Shown here in pieces: positions 1,414 through 19,508 of a stretch of 52,591 nt of DNA. The notes below the pieces were generated by a model. That model was given only the letters and a program-made list of their open reading frames with translations, had not been told where the DNA came from and searched no databases. The first letter of the stretch is position 1. Each line of letters opens with the position of its first letter. Position numbers and translations under genes: made by a program. Source of the DNA: Candidatus Bathyarchaeota archaeon (GTDB taxonomy: Archaea > Thermoproteota > Bathyarchaeia > Bathyarchaeales > Bathycorpusculaceae). Location: NCBI GenBank assembly GCA_029907545.1, contig JARYLR010000009.1, positions 1-52,591 of the forward strand, read 5' to 3'.

Positions 1414-4068
1414 ATGTTCACCATACCAAACATGTATTATGGAAGAGACAGAACAAAAGCGCTTCTGCTATCAGTAATCCTGATCACATCAACATTTGCA
1501 GTACTTGCACCCATGTCCGTTTCAACGATCAACAACACAACAGCAGCCGCTGCAGTTCAAAAGCTCACGACAAGCGTAGCGAAATCTCTAGCTGAGAATG
1601 CTGCAGAGATGAACGTAATCATTCAGACAACCAGCAATGTCGAAGTCAAAGCCCAAGTGGAAGCTTTAGGCGGAAGAATCACCCAGGTTTTCAAGAGCGT
1701 TGAAGCGATGGCTGTTTCCATTTCTTCAATAAACCTCTTGGAATTAGCTTCGAACAGGCATGTCATCAAAGTATTTGAAGACAAGTTGCAGAAGATAACC
1801 TACAGTGGGGCCTTCACAGAAGAACTTAAACCAAACGTCCCACGCGACCCTCTGACGGAACTCCCAATGGCAGAAACCCCTACTTCAGAAATTGAGGTTG
1901 AGCCAATAGCCATTGAGGACTTGCAGTGCGTGGAACCCAGCATATACACAAACGCGTATCTAACCCACGCCGACGTAGCTTGGGTTGACACAAACTACGG
2001 CGCTGGATCCACAGTCGTGATAATTGACACCGGCGTCTGGTCTGATTCCCCTTTGCTCAGCGGCAATGTGATTGGCGGAGTTGACATAAGCGTTGACGCC
2101 GGAGACCCCACATATGGCGGCTACAACAACCCTCTAAACCACTACCACGGAACAGCATGCGCACATCTGCTTGCTGCACACGCGCTTCTGCGGTTCTACC
2201 CCAACCATGCGTGGGGAGAGGCAATATACCGATATGACCCTGAAGGATCATGGAAGGACGCTGCTGGATACGTCTATGTAACATGTATGGGCATCGCTCC
2301 TGCGGCATCCATATATGGCATTAAAGTCTTTCCACACACTGGTGCTGGCGCGCCAACATCAACCATAATGGAAGCCATAGATATTGCTATCCAAATGAAG
2401 ATCAACGGAACCTTGGACGTTGATGTCATCAGCATGAGCCTAGGCGGTGGAGTTGGAGCAGACGGCGAAGACCCAGAAGACCTGCTTGTAGACGCAGCCA
2501 CAGCCGCAGGAATCACAGTTGTCGCAGCCGCAGGCAACGAAGGACCAGCCCCACTTAGAGTTAGCTCTCCAGCAAGCGCCAAAACAGCAATATCCGTAGG
2601 CGCCGCAATGGATCCAATCCACGAACGCGTCTGGGGAGATATCTACTTCTACCGCTATTACGGTGCTCCTCCAGGAAGCGGCTGGGGCGAACTATACTGG
2701 TATCCACACGATGAGATGTCAATAGTGGACTTCAGCAGCAGAGGGCCATCAGCAGACGGAAGAATCAAACCTGAAGTAGTCGCCACAGGCTCATGGTGCT
2801 TCCTAGGCGTCTTCGCTGACGGATACATCCGTATAGGCGGCGGAACTTCCTTCTCATGTCCACAAGTGGCAGGCGAAGCCGCGCTGCTCAATGCGTACGT
2901 GGAAATGAACGGCCTCAGCATAGGTCCACCAGAAATCAAACAGGCAATATATGACGGTGCCGAAGAAATCCCAGGCTTCACAGCGATGGAGCAGGGTGCA
3001 GGATACATTAACGTCTTGAACTCGCTAAACGTCATCAAATCCGGAACCTACGGAACAATCCCGTCAACATGGTCCCACCACATCTGCAAACCATGGTTTC
3101 CGCCAATAAGCACAAGCTTTCTCTGTGGAGGAAAACTGGTGCTGCATGACATAACACTGGAACCTGGAAAATACAAGTACGTTGCCTTCTGGACAGACAG
3201 CGAACTTGACTCTATAAAGATCACCCTCTCAGGAGTCCAGCTTGCCGACCCAAGTCAGCAGAACCCAGGCTTCGGAGACGCAGGCGTTCTCTACGTAAGC
3301 ACTCCTGAACGAGGAGGAATCGACGAATACCTATTCTACGGCGCCTACTTCACAAGTGACGGGCAAGCGTTGTACACGACGAACGTGCCATTCCAGCCAG
3401 GCGTCGTTAGGCTAGTGCTGGCAGGCGACTACTCAAGCTACGAATCAGTATTCATCAGCGAGCTCAAGATAGAGGTCACCGAAGTCTTCGTATCAAGCAC
3501 AGATAAGACTGTATACTTGCTTAACATGGGCGTCGCCACCGAAGCTCAGGTCGAGGTGTACCCAGGAAAGATCGAAAGATTCACAGGCAAGGTTAAGCAA
3601 GGTGAAACCGATATGTACACTTTCAACATACCGGACGCCAACGGCTTTGCCTTCGTGATTCTCTCCTGGTGGCGTGACTGGGCACACTGGGCAACAACAG
3701 ACTTGGACTTAATTGTCATCTTGCCTGACGGCTCGCTGAACGTTGACGGCGCAACCGCTGCATCACCAGAATCCATAATGATCGAAGGATCAGGACTATA
3801 CACTATCTTAGTGGACGGCTACCAGGTGTACTTTGATAAAACTGAGTGCTACACTTTGGAGATCGTATATTTCGCAGATGTTACACCTCTGTGGTCCTCA
3901 CCCGTCTTTCAGGTTGGGTGCTTGACCAAAGTTAAATCTCCCGTTTACGGTCTCGCTGTGGTCTGGCTACATGATACAGACTTTGACTCTTGGTACATCG
4001 CAGGCTTCCGGCAGCTGATGAAGAGTGGGTGCGGCAAAGGTGCTTCGTCTCCACACGGTTCAAACTAG
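1414..4068 (+). CDS. Secreted subtilisin-like serine protease (S8)
   Basis: A large (884 aa) secreted subtilase. The order is: N-terminal hydrophobic signal segment (about 10-35), an I9-like propeptide (about 60-125), the S8 catalytic domain (about 170-545), then beta-rich regions including a prepeptidase-C-terminal-like domain (about 690-830). The catalytic triad is visible as D205 (IIDTG), H245 (HYHGT) and S479 (GGGTS), with oxyanion Asn N375 (AAGNEG). There is no C-terminal anchor, so the product is probably released or held by the cell surface. A TTG at 1408 is in frame, but GGAG at 1402-1405 is correctly spaced for the ATG at 1414. A T-rich tract follows the stop. Confidence 0.92.
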   Translation: MFTIPNMYYGRDRTKALLLSVILITSTFAVLAPMSVSTINNTTAAAAVQKLTTSVAKSLAENAAEMNVIIQTTSNVEVKAQVEALGGRITQVFKSVEAMAVSISSINLLELASNRHVIKVFEDKLQKITYSGAFTEELKPNVPRDPLTELPMAETPTSEIEVEPIAIEDLQCVEPSIYTNAYLTHADVAWVDTNYGAGSTVVIIDTGVWSDSPLLSGNVIGGVDISVDAGDPTYGGYNNPLNHYHGTACAHLLAAHALLRFYPNHAWGEAIYRYDPEGSWKDAAGYVYVTCMGIAPAASIYGIKVFPHTGAGAPTSTIMEAIDIAIQMKINGTLDVDVISMSLGGGVGADGEDPEDLLVDAATAAGITVVAAAGNEGPAPLRVSSPASAKTAISVGAAMDPIHERVWGDIYFYRYYGAPPGSGWGELYWYPHDEMSIVDFSSRGPSADGRIKPEVVATGSWCFLGVFADGYIRIGGGTSFSCPQVAGEAALLNAYVEMNGLSIGPPEIKQAIYDGAEEIPGFTAMEQGAGYINVLNSLNVIKSGTYGTIPSTWSHHICKPWFPPISTSFLCGGKLVLHDITLEPGKYKYVAFWTDSELDSIKITLSGVQLADPSQQNPGFGDAGVLYVSTPERGGIDEYLFYGAYFTSDGQALYTTNVPFQPGVVRLVLAGDYSSYESVFISELKIEVTEVFVSSTDKTVYLLNMGVATEAQVEVYPGKIERFTGKVKQGETDMYTFNIPDANGFAFVILSWWRDWAHWATTDLDLIVILPDGSLNVDGATAASPESIMIEGSGLYTILVDGYQVYFDKTECYTLEIVYFADVTPLWSSPVFQVGCLTKVKSPVYGLAVVWLHDTDFDSWYIAGFRQLMKSGCGKGASSPHGSN

Positions 4069-16716: not shown

Positions 16717-17925
16717 TTAAGGTGTCGTTATCTTTCCCTCTGCCAGTTGTAGACAGAACTTCTCAATGTGTTCAAGCTCATAGTCCAGCAGGTTATTTAT
16801 CTTCTGTTTGACTGCGGCCAAGTCGTTTTTGTCTTTCATGACAACCTGCGCGGCTGCGACCGTTGGATGGTCGATGGGGCTGCCTATTTTGCTAAGCAGC
16901 CATATGTAGACTTCCTCCAGCTCTGGAATTTCATCGCATAGGCGTTGGGCTATTTTGTAGGTTAGAAAGTTGTATATCTTGCCCACGTGGCTGACGGAGT
17001 TCTTGCCGGCTGCAGCTTCGGAGCAGAACGGCCTGTTCAGGGATATTAGCCCGTTTACACGGTTGCCGCGTCCAACCTGTCCCGAGTCTCCGCTGTCTGC
17101 GCTTGTTCCTAGAACTGTTAGGTATAAGCCTCCTAATCCTCTGCCACGCACGTCTAACGTGTTAAGTTTCACGTCAACGCTCTCAAAGTCAGTGTTAACA
17201 GCTACAAACCGGTGGATTTCGTCGAGGATTTTTTCTTTTTTCTCGAAATAGTCATCTTCACTCTGTATGTAGCGGTCGACGAACGCCATGGCCACGGTAA
17301 GCTTGAGGTCGTTGTTGTTTCTGAAGGCCATGACCTTGATGTCTTCGCCAGATTCGGGAAAGCGTTTTTTGAAATTCTTCGAGTTCAGGTATTGCTCTGT
17401 TTTGAGAACTATTTTTTCAGTCCGGGTCATCGGCGCATAGCCTACCGCTGCAGACGTGTCATTGGCTCCTAGGACATGGCCCTTTCTCTTAAAGATGTCT
17501 GTGAGGCCTACGGAGCCTGGTTTGAGTTCGCTTTGATATTTTACGTGGTTTTCAGGGTCGATGAAGCGCATGTTTTTTTTCAGCCAGTTTTTGGCTGCTT
17601 TAATCGCGATTTCTTCAACATCTATTGTTTCGCCGTCTATCCTGTTGGTTGCTCGGTCTCCGAAGACAAACAGCATTGGCTGTTTCACGGTGCCTCCTCC
17701 AAATTTCGGCTCGATTTCTCCTGCTGCAAGCAGGGATTTGTCAACATTGTGGTGCAGTACTGCACCTGCTTTTTCGAGGTAGACCTTGCTTAGCTGTATG
17801 GAGATCTGATCCATTACGGCGTCGCAGATGTAGTCAGGGTGTCCTAGTCCTTTTCTTTCAACGATTTCTATTCGCTGTTTTTCCAGCGGGGTTTGTTTTA
17901 AGTTGTCTACGATTATGTTTCTCAT
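16717..17925 (-). CDS. mat: S-adenosylmethionine synthetase, archaeal type
   Basis: This 402-residue protein is the archaeal methionine adenosyltransferase, which makes S-adenosylmethionine from methionine and ATP. Family signatures are [13 protein letters not shown] near residue 23, HHNVDKSLL near 58, FGGGTVKQP near 75, [12 protein letters not shown] near 155 and [10 protein letters not shown] near 281. Length matches the family (about 400). It is divergent from an HTH-CBS regulator, with 100 bp between starts. Its product supplies the methyltransferases and radical SAM enzymes in the window. Confidence 0.95.
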
Positions 17926-18025
17926 TGTCTAGCTTCCGGCTCTGGTTTTTTGCGGATTATGGTTGGGTAAGGAATATATACTTTGCTATATGACTTTATA
18001 AATTGACATAACTGGTGGTTATATA
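17926..18025. promoter_or_regulatory. Divergent promoter region, mat / HTH-CBS gene
   Basis: This 100-bp AT-rich gap holds TATA-like sequences for both directions: CTTTATAAA near 17994-18002, about 27 bp before the TTG at 18026, and the same or TATATATTCC on the minus strand for mat. Overlapping promoters would let one regulator bound here affect both genes. Confidence 0.5.
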
Positions 18026-18568
18026 TTGGCGATTTCGGGTGCGCTGATTAGGAAGCTGCGGGTGGAGGTCGGTTTGACTCAGGAAAGGCTAGCACGGCTT
18101 GTAGGCGTGTCGCAGGCGCATATCGCAAAGATAGAGCGAGGCGTTGTCGATCCTAGGCTTTCAACTGTCAACCGTATCTTGCAGGTGCTAGACGGCTGGA
18201 AAAGCAGGCGGTGCAGAGACATAATGAGTAGTGGAGTTATTTTTGCAAGACTTAAGGACAGAGTTTTAGATGTTAGTGACAAGATGGTTAAACATTGTAT
18301 TTCGCAGGTTCCGGTGATTGAGCGAGGCAGGGTTGTTGGAACCGTAACTGAAGAATCAATTATGAGGCGGCTGGGCTCAGATGTTGATAAACGAACCGTG
18401 AAGGAAGTGATGGTTTCACCGTTACCCATTGTAAGCGAGGAGACAGACGTGGAAAAGATTAAGGGGCTTTTGAAAAGCTATCAAGGGGTTCTAGTTTCTA
18501 GAGGAATGCGAATAGTCGGCATTATAACGCGTTCGGATCTTCTGAAATTTCTATGTGAGCCAGCTTAA
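18026..18568 (+). CDS. XRE-type HTH regulator with paired CBS domains
   Basis: Residues about 6-55 are an XRE helix-turn-helix (LTQERLARLVGVSQAHIAKIERG). Two CBS motifs follow (about 62-118 and 123-178: DIMSSG...VPVIERGRVVGTVTEESI, then VMVSPL...IVGIITRSDLL). CBS pairs bind adenosine-containing ligands such as AMP, ATP, S-adenosylmethionine or methylthioadenosine. Being divergent from S-adenosylmethionine synthetase suggests a regulator that senses such a ligand; that is inference. The start is TTG 18026 with GGTGG about 7 nt upstream. Confidence 0.85.
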   Translation: MAISGALIRKLRVEVGLTQERLARLVGVSQAHIAKIERGVVDPRLSTVNRILQVLDGWKSRRCRDIMSSGVIFARLKDRVLDVSDKMVKHCISQVPVIERGRVVGTVTEESIMRRLGSDVDKRTVKEVMVSPLPIVSEETDVEKIKGLLKSYQGVLVSRGMRIVGIITRSDLLKFLCEPA

Positions 18569-18661: not shown

Positions 18662-19429
18662 TTATGCACTTATTTTTGGAGGGGGCTGAAGCTTCCTGCC
18701 AAGTTTCACGCGAAGCGCGACACGGTATAGTTTCCGAAGCGACTTAACAAGCTGCTCGACACTAGGCAAATCCGAGTATACTAGAGGGATTTGATCATAC
18801 TCTGCAAGGCGCATTGACTGCTCATCGGGACGCGCTCCGTGGAAAACTACAAGTCTAGGTTTCAGATTGCTGACGCGCACAATCATCATCGGCAGGTTGC
18901 CATTTTCTACATTGGTAAAAATCAGTGCTCTATCAGTTGAGCCTCCAAGAAGTTGCGAATACTCCAAGCCTGAAAGAGCCTCAACAGCCTTTTCGCTGTC
19001 CACAACCGTGTAGCCCAAAACTTCCTTGATGTTTCTGCTTGAGGTTGGTATGATCTCGCCTCTGATGGCTTTACAGAGATATTCTACTCTGACCGGAATG
19101 GGAAACTCGCGCAGATCCAATATAGCCATGCTAGGCGAACTTGTTAAACGTGCAAACTCTCGAATGAAGCGGCTTCCCCTTTCCTCATCAAGTTTCAGTA
19201 AAGCCCAGACAAACCGGCGAACAAAACGTGTGCCTGGGCTCTTGCGTCTTCCACTCTCGTAGTCACTGATGACCGAAGAGGAAACCATCATCTTTTCTGA
19301 AAGGCTTATCTGCGAAACCGCGAAGAGCTCCCGCCATCTTCGCATTGTAGCGCCAGGTTTGCCTGAAAGAATGATCTCGCCAGCAACCCTTCTTGCAAGG
19401 ACTTCGCGGACGCTTGGAGACACCGACAT
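18662..19429 (-). CDS. HTH transcriptional regulator, 255 aa
   Basis: An N-terminal XRE-like helix-turn-helix (about 35-70: ISLSEKMMVSSSVISDYESGRRKSPG) is followed by a long conserved archaeal domain with no assigned ligand (ALIFTNVENGNLPMMIVRVS, VVFHGARPDEQS). It belongs to the predicted archaeal regulators with a C-terminal sensor-like domain. A TATA box (TTTTTATA near 19480) places transcription start near 19455, so I used ATG 19429 (MSVSPSVREVL) rather than ATG 19465. No target can be named. Confidence 0.75.
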   Translation of the reverse strand: MSVSPSVREVLARRVAGEIILSGKPGATMRRWRELFAVSQISLSEKMMVSSSVISDYESGRRKSPGTRFVRRFVWALLKLDEERGSRFIREFARLTSSPSMAILDLREFPIPVRVEYLCKAIRGEIIPTSSRNIKEVLGYTVVDSEKAVEALSGLEYSQLLGGSTDRALIFTNVENGNLPMMIVRVSNLKPRLVVFHGARPDEQSMRLAEYDQIPLVYSDLPSVEQLVKSLRKLYRVALRVKLGRKLQPPPKISA

Positions 19430-19508
19430 TAGTCTTTCTCGCCAGCAAGTTCCCCTTAAGAACATTATGCACTATAAAAACCTTATAGACGGCAAAAGCA
19501 CAGTTTCC

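Follow-up and report, generated by a model that had tools for sequence, protein, structure and literature searches.

A candidate HTH-CBS regulator of S-adenosylmethionine synthetase in Bathyarchaeia

S-adenosylmethionine (SAM) is required in every cell, and the control of its synthesis in bacteria is well mapped, with riboswitches, MetJ and SahR as examples. We found no archaeal regulator of SAM synthetase in the open-licence literature, judged by titles and the starts of abstracts. A 52,591-nucleotide contig of a Candidatus Bathyarchaeota archaeon (JARYLR010000009.1, positions 1 to 52,591, hereafter the window) raises the question of whether such a regulator exists. On it, the gene for an archaeal-type SAM synthetase (MAT) lies back to back with a gene for a protein that joins a helix-turn-helix domain to a pair of CBS domains (HTH-CBS; here REG1). 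We asked whether this arrangement is kept, whether a regulatory site accompanies it, and what the protein might sense.

The REG1-MAT locus

The sequence-only reading of the window had described an HTH-CBS gene divergent from a SAM synthetase gene. Open reading frames together with Pfam and NCBIfam matches bear this out, and the gap between the two genes is exactly 100 bp (Table 1). The span given for the regulator, 17925-18568, contains the gene but begins too early: MAT has its first base at 17925, 17926-18025 is intergenic, and REG1 itself occupies 18026-18568. MAT scores 641 bits against NCBIfam model NF003363 (cut-off 557). REG1 carries an N-terminal HTH_3 domain (E 8e-14, 51.9 bits against a Pfam cut-off of 23) and a C-terminal CBS pair (PF00571, E 2.1e-21, 76.4 bits in two stretches); transcription regulators of this composition go by the name COG3620. 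The starts of REG1 and MAT, on both sides of the gap, are conserved across relatives. The TTG start of REG1 fits, because a 32-row alignment begins at the residue that it encodes and a GGTGG ribosome-binding-like stretch lies 8 nt upstream. The genome from which the window comes (1.46 Mb, 55 contigs) yielded one HTH-CBS match, and two further matches that span the CBS part only. The AlphaFold2 model of REG1 is confident across the CBS pair (mean pLDDT 85.6, pTM 0.63). A second HTH_3-type protein of 267 aa is encoded at 18662-19465 on the minus strand, tail to tail with REG1, and a gene 39% identical to it also adjoins REG1 at another locus (L043).

Table 1 Features of the REG1-MAT locus, in positions of the window.
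Feature	Position	Strand	Evidence or remark
MAT, archaeal-type S-adenosylmethionine synthetase, 402 aa	16717..17925	-	PF01941 E 2.4e-166; NF003363
Divergent intergenic region common to REG1 and MAT, 100 bp	17926..18025		Sequence, ORFs
Element B, A/T-rich TATA/BRE-like core with conserved extension	17973..17991		ATAYNGYAAARTATATATT on the MAT strand
Element A, palindrome ATAAC-TGGTG-GTTAT, predicted REG1 operator	18008..18022		Overlaps the REG1 ribosome-binding stretch
REG1, HTH_3 + CBS-pair regulator, 180 aa, TTG start	18026..18568	+	ORF, Pfam, AlphaFold2
REG1 HTH_3 domain, residues 8-56, recognition-helix region SQAHIAKIE	18047..18193	+	Pfam; conserved alignment columns
REG1 CBS domain 1, residues 64-116	18215..18373	+	Pfam
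REG1 CBS domain 2, residues ~124-176, GIITRSD signature	18395..18553	+	Pfam stretch; limits from model and alignment

Distribution of the divergent pair

The earlier reading had proposed conservation in relatives as a check on its claim, and the pair proved to be widely kept. Two overlapping genome sets were searched. In the first, 60 related genomes with the window's own among them, REG1 was found in 37: 36 with matches at E < 1e-47 and one (G022) with a contig-edge fragment adjoining MAT; a 33-residue fragment in G023 was excluded from the ortholog count. REG1 and MAT are divergent in 35 of these 37. The second set covered the class with 201 genomes at a threshold of E < 1e-70 and gave 54 REG1 orthologs, 26 of them new, with 23 of the new ones linked to MAT. 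Combined, 58 of the 63 sampled genomes that have a REG1 ortholog carry the divergent pair, and the arrangement is therefore not a matter of chance. The five others are G049, in which REG1 and MAT sit on different contigs, G054, where a search of the genome found REG1 and no archaeal MAT, and G193, G215 and G075. Gap lengths fall mostly at ~80-210 bp but extend to 834 bp (L040) and ~2.4 kb (L183). These whole-genome searches replaced pattern-based scanning of the GTDB contigs from a single protein, which had returned three true relatives and three HTH-only matches.

REG1 also tracks the enzyme. Of the 60 relatives, 44 encode archaeal MAT and 16 do not; REG1 occurs in 36 of the former and in one of the latter (G054; Fisher p 1.2e-7, a value that ignores relatedness). 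Ten genomes of the same order have MAT and lack REG1. The N-terminal domain of bacterial-type MetK scored above cut-off in 13 of the 60 relatives (G002, G009, G011, G013, G018, G023, G024, G026, G028, G030, G032, G041 and G054), none of which has archaeal MAT. MetK genomes and MAT genomes are intermixed inside the window's own family; MetK for MAT is an enzyme replacement inside one archaeal order. At one locus (L114:3654-6077, G021:C44), an in-frame intein with intein splicing and LAGLIDADG matches splits MAT after about residue 34.

As such, HTH-CBS proteins are common: at 1e-22, 155 of 300 genomes of the phylum have a match. Among 20 loci sampled outside the class, MAT lay beside an HTH-CBS gene within the fetched stretch in one, on the same strand. 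At L347 (G402, outside the class; positions 1549-3343), an HTH-CBS gene immediately precedes MAT in the same orientation, with a 64 bp gap.

Palindromes at the regulator and synthetase promoters

Alignment of the REG1-MAT intergenic regions yielded two conserved elements, A and B. Element A has the consensus ATAAC-N5-GTTAT, and in most rows 0 to 6 nt separate it from the REG1 start codon. An exact search for ATAACYNGNGGTTAT in the 60 genomes returned one copy per genome in 31 of them and nothing in the remaining 29; 30 of these 31 copies are located at the REG1 start (the exception is G042), and the reversed control gave three matches. This uniqueness within each genome argues for a regulator dedicated to the REG1-MAT locus. 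Among 26 REG1 genomes inspected afterwards, 22 have element A at 13/15 or better; families f15 and f21 include three REG1 genomes with no recognisable element A at REG1. The centres of the half-sites are 10 bp apart, one turn of DNA, which is the spacing expected for a dimeric HTH_3 protein. From this conservation and genome-wide uniqueness we infer that a dimer of the REG1 HTH_3 domain would bind ATAAC-N5-GTTAT between the two genes.

Element A lies within the REG1 leader with a GG-rich stretch in its potential loop, so we considered whether it acts as an RNA hairpin that hides the ribosome-binding site of REG1, in translational control, instead of as a DNA operator. Some leaders do fold (L012, -6.1 kcal/mol, z -4.6; L008, -7.3, z -2.9), but the window's own leader folds no better than shuffled sequences (z 0.31 and -0.46). 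In an alignment of 58 distinct rows, two of which (L169 and L173) were read on the opposite strand, the arm positions are near invariant (58, 58, 56, 58 and 54 of 58), compensatory changes were not found and bases outside the arms pair at about the chance level. Invariant arms without covariation point to a DNA site read by its sequence, and together with the folding result for the window's own leader they led us to judge an RNA hairpin very unlikely.

Element B behaves differently from element A. When the gap is long, element B stays with MAT, whereas element A stays with REG1 (L030, L040, L041, L183). Element B is present at 16/19 or better in 52 of 61 REG1 genomes, in eight of ten same-order genomes without REG1 and in none of 30 genomes with a second type of HTH-CBS protein (type 2, below). 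Its retention in eight of ten genomes without REG1 speaks against a second REG1 site, and element B is probably the MAT core promoter. Element A, by comparison, occurs at 13/15 or better at 53 of 61 MAT promoters of the REG1 type and at one of 30 of type 2. Upstream of MAT in G008 (L108) and G059 (L107), A-like sites matching at 14/15 and 13/15 are present where REG1 was not found beside MAT; they may be remnants of a lost regulator.

The attachment of element A to REG1 suits another account, in which REG1 only represses itself and the adjacency reflects a shared bidirectional promoter, leaving MAT unaffected. Element A overlaps the start of REG1, follows it over the long gaps and is missing from MAT where REG1 is farthest away or on another contig (L040, L183, L115, L185, L178). 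We nevertheless think this account unlikely: it does not lead one to expect REG1 to be mostly absent where archaeal MAT is absent, nor the site of a sister regulator to appear at MAT promoters to which that regulator is not linked.

This sister, type 2, is found in other families of the class, is 33-44% identical to REG1 and forms a separate clade. Its palindrome, ATTCCNNNNRGAAT (ATTCC-N4-RGAAT), precedes the type-2 gene in most such genomes; in six genomes (families f10, f18 and f23) type 2 and MAT form a divergent pair. We examined 30 type-2 genomes from eight families, chosen for family spread after sites had already been seen in several (12 had been inspected before); one of them, G103, has no HTH-CBS match at 1e-35. 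ATTCCNNNNRGAAT lies at most 250 bp upstream of MAT in 24 of the 30, mostly unlinked to the regulator, and a looser pattern matches 26 of the 30 MAT promoters; the shuffled-sequence rate for the palindrome is ~0.1%. Of the 18 genomes not inspected before, 14 have the site at MAT, where one of the 18 (G125) already had a match in an earlier listing with its position not yet assigned. The palindrome was found at the MAT promoter in none of 61 REG1 genomes. The bacterial metK locus, looked at in seven MetK genomes, gave no perfect type-2 site and only scattered one-mismatch matches. Two separate HTH-CBS lineages with different predicted operators share MAT as a target, and one of them would act on it in trans; a shared promoter could account for adjacency but hardly for operator sites at unlinked MAT genes. 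The recognition-helix stretch reads SQAHIAKIE in REG1 and SQSLIAKIE or similar in type 2, a difference consistent with the predicted change of operator. At MAT the type-2 palindrome sits 42-136 nt upstream of the start, mostly upstream of the TATA-like element, a position that again tells against a hairpin in a leader.

The type-2 target set appears to be wider in one family. In f24, a methionine-synthase-like gene (PF08267/PF01717) and the type-2 gene are transcribed away from each other, and two palindromes lie in the space that separates them; seven of the 30 genomes searched have the former gene, and six of these seven show the arrangement. Counts of the exact type-2 pattern in f24 genomes, made over both strands so that perfect palindromes score twice, exceed those of the reversed control (G084, 33 vs 0; G092, 37 vs 3; G125, 31 vs 3); in other genomes of that search the excess is small or absent, as in G134 (7 vs 12). 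Many of the matches in G084 and G092 fall inside genes and were excluded as targets. SAH hydrolase was dropped as a general type-2 target, with a site in two of 27 genomes only. A rhodanese-like sulfurtransferase gene has a type-2 palindrome ~55 nt upstream in both G084 (L233) and G092 (L266). A long ORF at L235:2229-4001 (G084) is, by eye, presumably a thymidylate synthase interrupted by an intein.

Family f9 departs from this pattern. Element A remains at REG1, and MAT bears another palindrome, TATGCA-N6-TGCATA, at a near-constant position 76-102 nt upstream of its start (e.g. L185, L040, L182). It matches at 9/12 or better in 16 of 16 f9 loci and at 10 or better in 11 of them; one of 27 loci from other families reaches 10. 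Either MAT has been taken over by another regulator in f9, or this is a second site used by REG1. This third palindrome, with the retention of element B in genomes without REG1, could be read more generally: MAT might be under an unrelated regulator acting at element B or at lineage-specific palindromes, with HTH-CBS genes nearby by accident. The type-2 palindrome, however, also occurs at the type-2 gene where that gene is unlinked to MAT, and we consider an accidental association quite improbable.

Proposed regulation, candidate ligands and comparable systems

Our main reading, to which we give a probability of roughly 0.7, is that REG1 is a dedicated, self-regulating regulator of MAT acting through element A, that its CBS pair binds an adenosyl compound, and that the type-2 sisters behave alike. 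The conserved pair, the scarcity of REG1 where archaeal MAT is missing and the sister operator at unlinked MAT genes give good support to the regulation of mat that the sequence-only reading had suggested. More broadly, to judge from genome comparison, control of SAM synthesis in this archaeal class very probably falls to HTH-CBS proteins.

The positions of the sites suggest how the two genes would respond. Element A lies downstream of the TATA-like element of REG1 and ahead of the start codon, where a bound protein should repress REG1, and the palindromes at regulator genes generally stand close upstream of the start, as in autorepression. The same site is ~16 bp upstream of the core promoter element of MAT, which makes activation of MAT likelier than repression. 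The type-2 site, judged by eye, precedes the TATA-like stretch of MAT by ~10-20 bp in families f24, f10 and f22 and by more elsewhere; such a position is more usual for archaeal activators, which favours activation of MAT combined with autorepression. On position alone, then, we lean modestly towards MAT being activated by REG1. Type-2 proteins would do the same job in other Bathyarchaeia through a different operator, and in one family would serve a wider target set that includes the methionine-synthase-like gene.

CBS pairs bind many adenosyl compounds, and the C-terminal pair of REG1 may bind one of them and thereby alter DNA binding. The likeliest ligand would be SAM or another compound of the cycle (MTA, SAH), since MAT is the one target common to both HTH-CBS types. 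The two CBS halves of REG1 differ, with GIITRSD in one and GTVTEE in the other; the former resembles the ribose-binding motif. In a PDB sequence search with the REG1 CBS pair, MJ0100 (6.4e-11; PDB 3KPB, 3KPC, 3KPD) ties with an AMPK-gamma-like protein as best match. MJ0100 is archaeal, and its matched chains, of 122-124 residues, differ from REG1 in consisting of CBS only. Its CBS pair has reportedly been found to bind SAM and MTA (Lucas et al. 2010). The top PDB matches of the REG1 model are likewise CBS proteins that do not tell ligands apart. The matches of the CBS pair do not single out SAM.

REG1 might regulate MAT and yet sense the energy state of the cell, with ATP, ADP or AMP at the CBS pair tying ATP-consuming SAM synthesis to adenylate charge. 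The best PDB sequence match, MJ1225, is described as an AMPK-gamma homolog, and AMP, ADP or ATP is present in many of the matched CBS structures. The available part of one source (PMC7028823) also describes CcpN, a Bacillus regulator which, like EF1025 of the Firmicutes and like REG1, has an N-terminal HTH followed by two CBS domains, and which differs from REG1 in having gluconeogenic genes as targets. REG1 scores 22.2 bits against the NCBIfam CcpN model (cut-off 260). The targets seen here are narrow and belong to the SAM cycle (one REG1 site per genome; type 2 at MAT and at the methionine-synthase-like gene), not to energy metabolism, and we hold energy sensing to be somewhat improbable while taking it seriously as an alternative to a SAM-cycle ligand.

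In its logic, the proposed REG1 system would resemble SahR/SamR and MetJ, built from a different protein family. SahR and SamR are ArsR-type HTH proteins; none of the Pfam or NCBIfam matches of REG1 belongs to that family. As far as the available part of the source goes (PMC4239095), SahR and SamR are self-regulating proteobacterial regulators of SAM-cycle genes with a palindromic operator, metK is among their targets, SamR is proposed to respond to SAM, and the regulon was inferred by comparative genomics. Self-regulation, a palindromic operator and a SAM-synthetase target would be shared with the HTH-CBS proteins, and the comparative-genomic route is the same; SahR and SamR differ in being bacterial, lacking a CBS pair and belonging to an unrelated protein family. 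According to the same partial source, ahcY is a core SahR target (PMC4239095), whereas the type-2 site is rare at SAH hydrolase. MetJ, the SAM-binding methionine repressor, resembles the proposed REG1 system in coupling transcription to SAM supply through a protein sensor, but it is gammaproteobacterial and, in the accessible part of its source, has a ribbon-helix-helix fold (PMC1282579), while the DNA-binding domain of REG1 is HTH_3. SAM riboswitches would play the same role, the SAM level setting SAM-synthetase expression, but they are RNA and REG1 is a protein. No SAM riboswitch was detected in the window at Rfam gathering scores, which were reached by one tRNA only.

More tentatively, HTH-CBS proteins could be the archaeal protein counterpart of SAM riboswitches: sensors of SAM, MTA or SAH placed on the MAT promoter throughout the class, each using a single short site to turn its own gene one way and MAT the other, with paralogs that have swapped operators (ATAAC-N5-GTTAT, ATTCC-N4-GGAAT and perhaps TATGCA-N6-TGCATA) and kept the target. 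We find this somewhat doubtful as a whole. If true, it would give a function and operators to a common archaeal domain arrangement, with targets predicted, and what the CBS regulators of archaea respond to would become a matter for a single binding assay.
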